NCBI GenBank assembly: GCA_017458025.1
Contig: JAFTGG010000130.1
Coordinates: 1-18,743 of the forward strand
Origin: Oscillospiraceae bacterium
Lineage (GTDB): Bacteria; Bacillota; Clostridia; Oscillospirales; Oscillospiraceae
Direction of reading: 5' to 3'
Length of the DNA: 18,743 nt
Shown here: in pieces, positions 11,387-16,228 of the stretch
How positions within the stretch are numbered: position 1 is the stretch's first letter
How the letters are laid out: the number at the start of each line of letters is the position of its first letter
Translations under genes and position numbers: made by a program
Notes under the pieces: model-generated
What the model saw: the letters and a program-made list of their open reading frames with translations, nothing else
Told to the model about the DNA's origin: nothing
The model's database searches: none

Positions 11387-11806
11387 CTATCTCGCCACCG
11401 TCAGGCAGGTCTGTCCTTCCTCCAACAGCTTCTCGTTCTCAAACAGCATACCCAACGTGTCCATATCAAATTCGTCCAGCGTCCCGCGATAGCGGCGCAG
11501 CTTGCCCGGGCCGCTGCCGACCCAGAGCGACCACAGCTCGACCTCCTCGCCCGCCGAGAAGTTCTCCCGCAGATAATCGGTCAAATGCCGCAAATCCGTC
11601 TCGCAGTTTTCCAAATCAAACGCGTATTGATACGGCTTCATCTCGAAGCCCAGCTCCTCCACGGCGTCGCGGTAATAGTTGTGTTCCTCCACATAAAAGC
11701 CCATGTCAAAACCGATGGTATACCTGCCGCTCGTTTTCTCGCGATATTCCCGAAAGTCGCACGGCGGCAGCGGCTTGTCCGCCGCGATCAATGACACATG
11801 GCTCAT
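11387..11806 (-). CDS. Hypothetical protein between infB and rbfA
   Basis: I do not recognise the family. From the ATG at 11806, with AAAGGG 6 bases upstream, the product is 139 residues, acidic and soluble-looking, with no signal peptide or membrane segment. It is rich in aromatic residues in the middle (GFYVEEHNYYRDAVEELGF, MKPYQYAFDLEN) and has the segment VELWSLWVGSGPGKLRRYRG, then alternating acidic/hydrophobic residues to the end (TCLTVAR). The frame runs further upstream into infB to 11950, but that part is out-of-frame infB sequence with poor composition. It is not YlxP (DUF503), which normally sits here. Codon use and base composition match its neighbours, so recent foreign origin is not indicated. 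It may be cotranscribed with rbfA. Confidence 0.75.
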   Translation of the reverse strand: MSHVSLIAADKPLPPCDFREYREKTSGRYTIGFDMGFYVEEHNYYRDAVEELGFEMKPYQYAFDLENCETDLRHLTDYLRENFSAGEEVELWSLWVGSGPGKLRRYRGTLDEFDMDTLGMLFENEKLLEEGQTCLTVAR

Positions 11807-11826
11807 AAAATCCCTTTCGCGAAACA

Positions 11827-11851
11827 AGGGGCGGGCGAAACGCCCGCCCCT
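11827..11851 (-). terminator. GC-rich hairpin after infB
   Basis: A perfect 11-base inverted repeat (AGGGGCGGGCG and complement) encloses a 3-base loop, 14 bases after the infB stop. On the minus strand it is followed by TTGTTT, a short imperfect T-tract. It is a probable intrinsic terminator or attenuator separating the rimP-infB operon from the downstream genes. The 3' side runs into the ribosome binding region of the hypothetical gene. Confidence 0.65.
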
Positions 11852-11865
11852 CGTATGATACTCTT

Positions 11866-14247
11866 TTAAACCTCGATCTGCTCCATGACGAAGGCTTCGA
11901 CCACGTCGCCGAGCTTGATGTCGTTGTACTTCTCGAAGCTCAAGCCGCACTCGTAGCCGGAGGCGACCTCCCTGACCGCGTCCTTGAAGCGCTGGAGCGA
12001 CGCGAGCGCGCCTTCGTGGACGACGATGCCGTCACGCACGATGCGCACCTCGCAGGCGCGCTGGATCTTGCCGTCGGTGACATAGCAGCCCGCGACCGTG
12101 CCGACGCTGGAGACCTTGTAGGTCTGGCGCACCTCGGCGTGGCCCAGGACGACCTCGCGGAACTTCGGGGCGAGCATGCCCTTCATCGCCGCCTCGATCT
12201 CGTCGATCGCGTCGTAGATGACGCGGTACATGCGCATATCGACGTGCATGCGCTTCGCGCTCTCCGCCGCCACGGAGTCGGGGCGCACGTTGAAGCCGAC
12301 GATGATCGCGTTCGAGGTCGACGCCAGCATGACGTCGCTCTCGTTGATCGCGCCGACCGCGCCGTGAATGACGCGCACGCGGACCTCGTCGTTCGAGAGC
12401 TTTTCGAGCGAGCTCTTGACCGCCTCGACGCTGCCCTGCACGTCCGCCTTGACGATCAGGTTCAGGTTCTTCATCTCGCCCGCCTGGATCTGGCTGAACA
12501 GGTCCTCCAGCGAAACCTTCGTAATCGGCGCGTTGGCCTTGAGCTTCTCCTCCGCCTTGCGCTGCTCCACCAGCTCGCGCGCGAGGCGCTCGTCGGCGAC
12601 GGCGTTGAACGTCGCGCCCGCGCCCGGCACGTCGCCGAGGCCCGTGATCTCCACCGGCACGGAGGGACCCGCCTCGGTCAAACGCTGGCCCTTGTCGCCC
12701 ACCATCGCGCGCACACGGCCGACGGCCGTGCCGGCGATGATGATGTCGCCCTGACGCAGCGTGCCGTTCTGGACGAGCAGCGTCGCGATCGGGCCGCGGC
12801 CCTTGTCGAGCCGCGCTTCGATGACCGTGCCGGAAGCGGCGCGGTTCGGATTGGCCTTCAGCTCGCCGACCTCGGCGGTCAGCGCGACCATCTCCAGCAG
12901 GTTGTCGATGCCCATACCGGTCTTGGCGGAAATCGGACAGACGATGGTCTGGCCGCCCCAATCCTCGGCGAGCAGGTCGTGCTCGGTCAACTGCTGCTTG
13001 ATGCGCTCGGGGTTCGCGTCGGGTTTATCCATCTTATTGATGGCGACGATGATCGGAATACCCGCCGCCTTGGCGTGGTTGATGGACTCGACGGTCTGCG
13101 GCATGATGCCGTCCTCCGCCGCGACGACGAGAATGGCGATATCCGTCACCATCGCGCCGCGGGCGCGCATGGACGTGAACGCCTCATGGCCGGGCGTATC
13201 GAGGAACGTGATGGGCCTGCCCTTGATCTGCACCTGATACGCGCCGATGTGCTGCGTGATGCCGCCCGCCTCGCCGGAGGCGACGTGCGCGTTGCGGATA
13301 TAGTCGAGCAGCGAGGTCTTGCCGTGGTCGACGTGGCCCATGACCACGACGACGGGCGCGCGGAGCTCCAGCTCGTCTTCCGTATCCTGATGGTCGTCGA
13401 TGAGCTTCTCCTCGATGGTGACGACGACCTCCTTCTCGACCTTGCAGCCGAGCTCCTCCGCGACAAAGGACGCGGTGTCGAAGTCGATCATCTGGCTCAG
13501 CGACGCCATGACGCCGTTCTTCACAAGGCACTTGACGACCTCCGCGCCGGTCTTCTTCATGCGCGACGCCAGCTCCTGTACGGAGATCTCGTCGGGGATC
13601 TTGACCGTGACGGGCGTCTTCTTCAGCGCTTCGAGCTGGAGACGGCGCATGCGCGCGGCCTCCTCCTGCTTGCGCTTGTTGGAGAACGTCGGCGCGCCGC
13701 CGCGGCCCCTGTTCTTGCCGGCGTTGCGGAACTTCTCCTTGTTGCCGCTCTGCTCGGCGCGGCGCCCGCCGCCGCCGGAGCGGTCCGCCATGTCCTGCAG
13801 CTTCTCGTCGTACTTGTCGAGATTGACGTTGGTCGCCTTGCGCGTGTCGACGATCTTCTTCTCCGGCACGCGGGATACCGGCTGCGCCGGCTTGTCGGGC
13901 TTCTCGGCCTTGGGCGCGGGCGCATTGCCGCTCTGCTGCGCCGCCGGAGCGGACGCGCCGCCCTGCGCGGCGGAGGCCTCAGCCTTGGCCTCCTGCTTCT
14001 GCCCCGCCTTGGGCTGCTCCTCCTGCTTTTCCTGATAGGTGTCGGCAAAGATCGTCGCGATCTCCACCTGATTCTTCTGCGTCAGGTACTCAAAAAGGAT
14101 CGACAGCTCGCGCTCGTCCAGCACCTGAGAAGGCCCTTTCACCGTGTCCGTATAGTTTTTGAGGATACCGACGATATCCTTGCTGCTCATGCCAAAGTCC
14201 TTGGCGAGCGCAGACACCTTGTTTTTGTTGACGGTAGCAGTTGCCAC
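11866..14247 (-). CDS. infB: Translation initiation factor IF-2
   Basis: IF2 is the GTPase that places initiator fMet-tRNA on the 30S subunit and promotes 50S joining. The 793-residue product starts with GTG at 14247; GGAGGT lies 6 bases upstream and no in-frame ATG fits better. Domains in order: a first IF2_N module (about 8-58), an Ala/Lys/Gln/Gly-rich linker (about 70-205, including an Arg/Gly stretch near 156-184), a second IF2_N module (about 212-265), the G domain with GHVDHGKT (304-311), GGITQHIG (328-335), DTPGH (350-354), NKMD (404-407) and SAK (440-442), a beta-barrel domain II, domain C1 (about 575-690) and the C2 tRNA-binding domain ending [20 protein letters not shown]. It follows the L7Ae-like gene by 29 bases. 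Confidence 0.97.
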
Positions 14248-14276
14248 GATAACACCTCCATTAAGTGCTGGGGAAA

Positions 14277-14708
14277 TTACTTCTTGGTACGCTTTTTGCC
14301 GGTGCGCACGTTTTTGTCGTGCCGCGCCTGCTCTTTCTTCCGCTCGGCGGCCCTCGCGGCCTTTGCCGACAGCTTTTCCGCGGTCTCGCCGTAGCGCTTT
14401 TCATCGAGCGCCGCGAGCTTTTTCGCGACCGCCTCGGCAAAACCGACGTCGGTGACGGCGAGCATCGCGCAGGACGTGCGCCCCACGGCGCGGCCGAGTT
14501 CGTCCTTGGCGGCGGGGATCGTCACGCACAGGCACGCGCCCGCCTCGGCAAAGTGCTTCGCGCGGCGCGCCGTGTTGTCCGCCGCGTCCGACGCGAGCAG
14601 AATGAGCCGCGCGTCGCGCGCTCTCGCCGCCGCGCCGACGGGTTCCTCGCCCGCTTCGAGCCGTCCCGCCTTTTTTGCCAGGCCAAGCAGCGATAATACG
14701 TTATTCAC
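14277..14708 (-). CDS. L7Ae/L30e family RNA-binding protein (YlxQ-like)
   Basis: From the GTG at 14708 the protein has 143 residues. The first 100 or so match the L7Ae/YlxQ fold found between ylxR and infB in Firmicutes: [20 protein letters not shown], then a conserved [14 protein letters not shown] segment, then [21 protein letters not shown]. Such proteins bind kink-turn RNA; the precise target of YlxQ is not settled. Compared with the usual length of about 100 residues there is an extra Lys/Arg/Ala/Glu-rich tail (about 105-143, ending [10 protein letters not shown]), likely helical and nucleic-acid binding. The GTG overlaps the end of ylxR by 8 bases, with AGGAG 10 bases upstream. The longer frame to 14828 is out-of-frame ylxR DNA and is rejected. 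Confidence 0.9.
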
Positions 14709-14973
14709 CGCCTGCCATCTCCTGTTCCAGCGCGTCGTAGACCTCCGGCGGGATCGCCGCCGAAAACGCTCGCTCCAGCGCCCGCGACTTGCGCGCCCTT
14801 TTGAGGCACTCCGCGTTCGGGCAGACATACGCGCCGCGCCCGGGCTTCTTGCCGCGGAAGTCGAGCGTGATGGCCCCCTCCGGCGACTTGACCACGCGGA
14901 TCAGCTCGCGCTTGTCTTTCATCTCACGGCAGCCCACGCATTGCCGCTGCGGTATTTTCTTCGGCTTTTGCAT
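14701..14973 (-). CDS. ylxR: YlxR family RNA-binding protein (DUF448, RnpM)
   Basis: The 90-residue protein shows the full YlxR pattern: PQRQCVGCREMKDKRELIRVV near the N-terminus (C12, C15), then GRGAYVCPNAECLKRARKS (C51, C56). YlxR was described as an RNA-binding protein of the nusA/infB operon and more recently as an RNase P modulator in Bacillus subtilis. It is encoded 18 bases after nusA, with AAAGGA 10 bases before its ATG, and its last codons overlap the GTG of the L7Ae-like gene. Confidence 0.95.
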   Translation of the reverse strand: MQKPKKIPQRQCVGCREMKDKRELIRVVKSPEGAITLDFRGKKPGRGAYVCPNAECLKRARKSRALERAFSAAIPPEVYDALEQEMAGGE

Positions 14974-14991
14974 AGGCGCGCCGTCCTTTCG

Positions 14992-16032
14992 TTATTCCTC
15001 CGCCTTTGCTCCGGCTTCGGCGGCGGCCTCCGCCGCCTCCTCCGCGCTGCCGCGGAAGGACTCGGGCTTGATGTCGATCTTGTAACTGACGAGGCGCGCC
15101 GCGAGGCGGGCGTTCTGGCCCTCCTTGCCGATGGCGAGGGAGAGCTGGTCGTCCGGCACGATGACGCGGCAGGCCTTGCCGTCGTCCGCCATCCAGACGT
15201 CGGTGACGTCCGCCGGCGCGAGCGCCGCCGCGATGTATTCCTCGGGCGTCTCGCTGTATTTGATGATGTCGATCTTCTCGCCGCGCAGCTCGTTGACGAT
15301 ATTGTTCACGCGCGCGCCGTGCTGGCCGACGCAGGCGCCGATGGGATCGACGTTCGGATCGTTGCTCCACACCGCCATCTTCGTGCGGCTGCCCGCCTCG
15401 CGGGCGATGCTGCGGATCTCGACGACGCCGTCGGCGATCTCGGGCACCTCCAGCTCGAACAGGCGCTTGACCAGGCCCGGGTGCGTGCGGGAGATGATGA
15501 CCTGCGGTCCGCGGTTCGCGCGGCGCACGTCGACGAGGTAGACCTTGACGCGCTGGCCCTCGACCAGCGTCTCGCCCTTGACCTGCTCGCCCATAGTGAG
15601 CACGGCGTCGGTCGCCTCGGCGCCGTTGCCGATGCGAATCGCGGCGTTGCCGGTGCGCGGGTCGATACGCTGCACGATGCCGGTGAGGATCTCGTGCGTC
15701 TTGGAGTTGTACTCGTCGTAGACCATGCCGGTCTCCGCCTCGCGCAGACCCTGAATGATGACCTGCTTGCCGTTGCCGGCGGCGATGCGCCCGAACTCCA
15801 CCGTATCGACGGGGAAGTTGACGATATCGCCGAGCGTATGCTTCGCGGAGATCGCCCTCGCGTCCTCCAGCGAGATCTGCGCGCCTGGCTCCTCGACCTC
15901 CTCGACGACCTCCTTCTGGACGTACATCTTGAGGTCCTTCCTCGCCTCGTTCACCTCGACGTAGACGTTCTCGACGCCGGGGTGATCCTTCTTGTAGGCG
16001 GTGGAAAGCGCCTGCACGATCTTATCCATCAT
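14992..16032 (-). CDS. nusA: Transcription termination/antitermination factor NusA (N-terminal frameshift)
   Basis: NusA binds RNA polymerase and nascent RNA and modulates pausing, termination and antitermination. The continuous frame from the ATG at 16032 encodes 346 residues: most of the N-terminal domain (1-108), S1 domain (about 113-180), KH1 with IGACVGQHGARVNNI (231-245), KH2 with LSLAIGKEGQNARL (297-310) and an acidic Ala/Glu tail (329-346). About 23 residues normally at the NusA N-terminus are missing from this frame. They are encoded just upstream in another frame from 16100 (MKCDEIFAALALLEKERGIP), so the gene carries a one-base deletion relative to the expected sequence at the CCCC run 16041-16044. 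Restoring one C gives GIPQDFMMDKI in frame. The ATG at 16032 has no ribosome binding site of its own. Confidence 0.93.
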   Translation of the reverse strand: MMDKIVQALSTAYKKDHPGVENVYVEVNEARKDLKMYVQKEVVEEVEEPGAQISLEDARAISAKHTLGDIVNFPVDTVEFGRIAAGNGKQVIIQGLREAETGMVYDEYNSKTHEILTGIVQRIDPRTGNAAIRIGNGAEATDAVLTMGEQVKGETLVEGQRVKVYLVDVRRANRGPQVIISRTHPGLVKRLFELEVPEIADGVVEIRSIAREAGSRTKMAVWSNDPNVDPIGACVGQHGARVNNIVNELRGEKIDIIKYSETPEEYIAAALAPADVTDVWMADDGKACRVIVPDDQLSLAIGKEGQNARLAARLVSYKIDIKPESFRGSAEEAAEAAAEAGAKAEE

Positions 16033-16100
16033 GAAGTCCTGGGGATACCGCGCTCTTTTTCGAGCAGCGCGAGCGCGGCGAAGATTTCATCGCATTTCAT
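16029..16100 (-). other. nusA: Displaced N-terminal segment of nusA (23-codon frame overlapping the NusA ATG)
   Basis: The ATG at 16100, preceded by AGGAG 11 bases upstream, opens a frame reading MKCDEIFAALALLEKERGIP and then RTS before TGA at 16029-16031. The first 20 residues are the expected NusA start. The TGA overlaps the ATG (16030-16032) that opens the rest of NusA, in the arrangement ATGA. An 8-base stem (16048-16055 with 16071-16078) lies just before the CCCC run on the mRNA. One missing base, a real mutation with reinitiation, or -1 slippage of tRNA-Pro on C-CCC would all explain the layout. Confidence 0.85.
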
Positions 16101-16228
16101 GTTAAGAACAACTCCTGTTCATGGTATTACATATCAAAAACACCGTATTGTTTTTGAACGCCATACTCGCGGTTGCCGCGCAGGCGGCGAGCGAAACGGC
16201 ATTTTGCGCAAATTTTAGAAATCCATTT
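16101..16228. promoter_or_regulatory. Structured leader between rimP and nusA
   Basis: No gene here. The 128-base gap is long for rimP-nusA. On the transcript it holds, after the rimP stop hairpin, a GC-rich stem-loop (about 16165-16190), a 9-base stem TCAAAAACA / TGTTTTTGA (16134-16157, 6-base loop) and a small stem GAACA / TGTTC (about 16106-16120) that places the GGAGT of the nusA ribosome binding site in its loop. A TGTAAT resembling a -10 box lies near 16129-16134 but no convincing -35 matches it. Confidence 0.45.

Follow-up and report, generated by a model that had tools for sequence, protein, structure and literature searches.

A single-base frame break near the start of nusA in an Oscillospiraceae draft contig, most likely a sequencing or assembly error

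According to Cooley and Wright (2024, PMC11017572), assembly errors account for many putative pseudogenes that show a frameshift or an internal stop, and the occurrence of these errors varies with coverage, platform, and assembler. The nusA break described here lies in a window of 18,743 nucleotides, the whole of contig JAFTGG010000130.1 from an Oscillospiraceae bacterium (GCA_017458025.1). It is similar to the spurious frameshift pseudogenes of draft assemblies treated there (PMC11017572) because the frame of a conserved gene is broken while near-identical sequences are intact; that study drew on simulations, on assemblies from RefSeq, and on genomes reassembled from their reads, and the present case on sequence comparison. 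The window shares with Oscillospiraceae and Oscillibacter-like NusA proteins the domains, the length (369 aa in protein P0002), and the N-terminal sequence as far as the break. It differs from them in that the NusA frame is lost after codon 20. In programmed -1 ribosomal frameshifting of the dnaX type, the frame changes at a run of identical bases, and such a run is also present at the frame change in the window. Unlike dnaX-type sites, the site in the window is not conserved, contains no in-frame X XXY YYZ heptamer recognizable by eye, and has no stimulatory structure that we could find. Literature searches listed no title that dealt with a comparable natural frameshift in nusA.

The Break as It Stands in the Contig

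The frame that opens at the minus-strand ATG 16100-16098 reads MKCDEIFAALALLEKERGIP-RTS-stop in the translation of the window (Table 1). NusA is matched continuously on both sides of the break, and decay is absent from the first 20 codons. Against the Pfam NusA_N profile, the match of the 346-residue product begins at position 20 of 119, and that of the intact protein P0002 begins at position 1. The original prediction placed a ribosome binding site and the ATG at 16100 ahead of 20 NusA codons, with which our re-reading and the SD-like CAGGAG (duplex energy -6.9, spacing 10 bases) agree. It also held that NusA shifts frame after the CCCC run and that the TGA overlaps the ATG at 16032, and these coordinates proved correct when rechecked. 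The SD-like site before 16032 is weaker (duplex energy -4.0, spacing three bases). The window holds 76 C or G runs of at least four bases, among which the C4 run at the break is unremarkable.

The gene is single copy in the source genome, where P0002 as query gave two matches (residues 1-22 and 15-369). A second intact nusA elsewhere in this genome was considered and rejected because there were no other matches and these two correspond to the sequence on either side of the break.

Table 1. Positions of nusA parts and of sequence elements around the break, in window coordinates
Feature	Position	Strand	Remarks
First nusA frame	16029..16100	-	23 codons and TGA; the 20 initial codons correspond to the NusA N-terminus
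C4 run	16041..16044 (read 16044-16041)	-	NusA reading passes to another frame after it
ATGA stop/start overlap	16029..16032	-	TGA 16031-16029 and ATG 16032-16030
Remaining nusA, 346 codons	14992..16032	-	carries NusA_N (profile position 20 onward) and the S1 and KH domains
SD-like CAGGAG	16112..16117	-	5' of ATG 16100

nusA at the Same Site in Other Genomes

A protein search yielded P0002, a NusA of 369 aa encoded on a contig of 12,959 bases. It is identical to the NusA of the window at 345 of 346 residues, the sole difference being Ala for Val at position 180. Its residues 1-20 equal the first 20 codons of the window and are followed by QDF and then by the common part. Judged by this identity, P0002 and the nusA of the window are evidently from the same species, and P0002 shows an intact nusA of that species on another contig, which may derive from the same sample as the window. 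Two further NusA entries, P0001 (585 aa) and P0003 (545 aa), have much of the protein tandemly duplicated internally, possibly as assembly artefacts.

A nusA is present in all 17 genus mates, and the N-terminus is covered in 16 of them (L025 ends there with its contig), each with a frame open across the site from a start giving MKCD. A wider set of 97 loci was composed of the 17 genus mates and the best 80 of at least 575 related loci; because the two groups overlap, 14 loci identical to another in the first 600 bases of the match were dropped as duplicates, leaving 83 distinct loci. The site is covered in 82 of these, and the frame is open there in every one. Stops within the alignment occur in eight of the 83 loci, all at positions 353-363 of 369, and are taken as natural ends.

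At the family level, a search with full-length NusA gave matches in 238 of 250 genomes (eight of these with two matches), leaving 12 genomes without a match. Among the matches listed, those of all genomes but the window's begin at query residue 6 or earlier. The seven other genomes with two matches were inspected, and none has a frame break at the nusA site: three genomes of one genus have an insertion and an open frame, in another the gene is split over contigs, a fifth contains an N run, and in the last two the second match is weak and unrelated. G206 had been a candidate for a second broken nusA and was rejected because of an N run there (23 N in L256). Thirteen weak-scoring genomes with a single match, from beyond those listed, were inspected again. 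Judged by positions, contig ends lie at the matches of G043, G054, G182, G195, and G042, while the matches of G066, G151, G210, and G255 start from residue 4 or 5 and span most of NusA. In G097, G173, and G200 the match ends between residues 255 and 284, and in G203 it comprises only 29 residues; as seen, these four matches do not bear on the break site.

Because the genus mates, the 82 loci, and the inspected family genomes are without the break, it is private to the window's record among the genomes examined at the site. The comparison with the same position in related genomes that the original prediction had proposed has thus been run, and the break was found in 0 of 82 loci and 0 of 16 genus mates.

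A long acidic insertion in the NusA N-terminal domain, near P0002 residues 71-75, was observed in three loci of one genus (L251, L252, and L253 from G126, G023, and G190). In this genus, open NusA frames of 445-467 codons occur in all three matching genomes; the fourth genome, G239, has no match.

Origin of the Missing Base

A technical slip is the most likely explanation of the break, since nusA is whole in the compared relatives and, it appears, in a second copy from the same species. We infer, with a probability of about 0.82, that the record of the window is one base short through a sequencing or assembly error. On this reading nusA is an ordinary, functional gene whose C run has lost one base in the contig; the loss most likely arose while the draft genome was sequenced or assembled, and the organism most likely makes a full-length NusA of ~369 residues from the ATG at 16100. 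An isolated error is the simplest account, given that assembly errors are reported to underlie many of the frameshift and stop pseudogenes found in public genomes (PMC11017572). A point against it is that, in the same study, reads of low quality increased internal stops more strongly than they increased frameshifts. Of the three options in the original prediction, a sequencing or assembly indel, which it had ranked first, is the best supported, the break being found in no relative examined and the near-identical P0002 being intact; its proposals of reinitiation at the ATGA and of slippage on the C run fared poorly. An artefact would matter for annotation only, as gene callers would give a NusA minus its first 23 residues or a pseudogene, whereas a real break would help to tell which part of NusA cannot be dispensed with.

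The source genome consists of 282 contigs and looks like a short-read assembly, and such assemblies seldom gain or lose one base within a short run, which also speaks against an error. Frame changes were surveyed in 609,436 of its 2,011,155 bases (81 pieces, including the window), which were read with ORFs from 1,057,593 bases of genome G006; the pieces were picked by contig number and supplemented with contigs already hit in a palindromic-repeat search, and genes were taken from a simple ORF caller. Filters on identity, coverage, and codon-position pattern dropped 236 of 301 (forward) and 183 of 258 (reverse) proteins with any match. Frame changes remained in two of 65 filtered shared genes, namely nusA and one doubtful gene near a probably over-long start, and six further genes of the 65 carried in-frame stop flags alone. 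In the reverse comparison, one of 75 genes had a frame change and 12 had stop flags; the stop flags are likely to stem from shadow frames and from ORF starts called too far upstream. Fourteen of the 16 ORFs of the window have a clear counterpart in the G006 sample, each in one stretch, with nusA as its 346-residue part; no orthologue of the SDR and a 187-aa ORF was found in this sample, which is part of one genome. A general frameshift excess was not clearly seen, either with these filters or before them (6/117 vs 2/124 in reverse), and the sampled assembly is not conspicuously frameshift-ridden. Because the survey does not mark the assembly as poor, it counts somewhat against an error, and the artefact reading therefore rests on the relatives rather than on overall assembly quality.

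The few clear frame changes in the sampled assembly leave room for a genuine deletion of one base that occurred very recently in the strain sequenced, by which NusA would be lost or a 346-residue form made at low level by reinitiation at 16032. We consider this unlikely. In its favour, variation within the species is quite possible, given the one residue at which P0002 differs, and an ATG with a weak SD-like site stands at the stop. The structure model of P0002 (mean pLDDT 70.6, pTM 0.43; block pLDDT 70-78 over residues 1-30) has helices at residues 3-17 and 21-39 of the N-terminal domain, and a start at residue 24 (ATG 16032) would drop the first helix and clip the second. This domain makes contact with the RNA polymerase flap-tip helix (PMC8940904), and NusA is stated to be essential in Bacillus subtilis and Escherichia coli (PMC8060035). 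A viable truncated NusA is unlikely on the basis of the model because the first helix would be lost, the domain contacts RNA polymerase, and NusA is described as essential. It is more doubtful still that the strain truly has the deletion and lives with a NusA minus its first helix, reinitiated at the ATGA, with this helix dispensable in some Oscillospiraceae.

The elements that would serve reinitiation are also found as plain codons in intact relatives. An ATG is present at residue 24 in all 82 loci and the ATGA, in frame, in 69 of them, so that the letters of the stop-start overlap are not specific to the broken form; before duplicate removal, ATGATG was found in 81 and ATGA in 82 of 96 loci. 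The ATGA occurs in relatives because the codon after Met24 begins with A and is nearly always ATG. The internal SD-like site has a median energy of -4.0 in the relatives, equal to the value in the window. A run of at least four C is present in 56 of 82 loci and C5 in 31, and codons 20-21 have 15 spellings, with CCCCAG the commonest (46/82). Across these loci the C run is ordinary Ile-Pro-Gln coding, and the ATGA, the C run, and the weak internal SD-like site are not special to the broken form. In pseudoknot-free structures, the RNA folds no better than shuffles (z -0.53 for the 80 bases downstream, z -0.44 for the start region). The shifted arrangement is conserved in 0 of 82 loci, and a conserved regulatory frameshift was rejected on this basis. 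Reinitiation at the ATGA and slippage on C-CCC lose support because the ATGA and C run are ordinary, the spellings vary, the RNA folds are unremarkable, and conservation of the lesion is absent.

A programmed -1 shift at the C run, or slippage during transcription, giving two NusA forms from one gene, is very improbable: in ATCCCC a tRNA on CCC could re-pair with the CCC one base back, and the C run is frequent at this site, though in an unbroken frame, but all 82 relatives are open without the shifted arrangement, codons 20-21 vary in spelling, no RNA structure stands out, and work on E. coli and Buchnera described G/C runs as not prone to slippage during transcription (PMC5574713). In these organisms, the homopolymer transcription insertions reported were all in A or T runs (PMC5574713). 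A search for frameshifting literature led only to a paper on loss of m1G37 at proline codons (PMC8643618), not on a programmed site.

Neighbourhood and Other Features of the Window

The gene upstream of nusA is presumably rimP, and those downstream we take to be ylxR, an L7Ae-like gene, infB, rbfA, nrnA, truB, and ribF. Neighbours were named by reading translations, and NusA was the only protein of the window scanned against the family library. A 187-codon ORF follows infB (11387-11950, minus strand). The Rfam scan gave a single match below the gathering threshold (25.4 vs 45; plus strand, 15010-15107), no tRNA genes were found in the window, and no phage records similar to window positions 15800-16200 were found.

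On the plus strand, very long open frames lie opposite infB (12016-14394, 792 codons) and nusA (14452-16218, 588 codons). They are at most putative genes, and high G+C codon use can give such frames.

A dispersed palindromic repeat of ~41 nt, which we label REP/MITE-like, lies between rimP and nusA on the minus strand (~16160-16200). It has 19 matches in 590,693 sampled bases of its own genome (window excluded, contigs picked for matching included) and four in 1,057,593 bases of G006.
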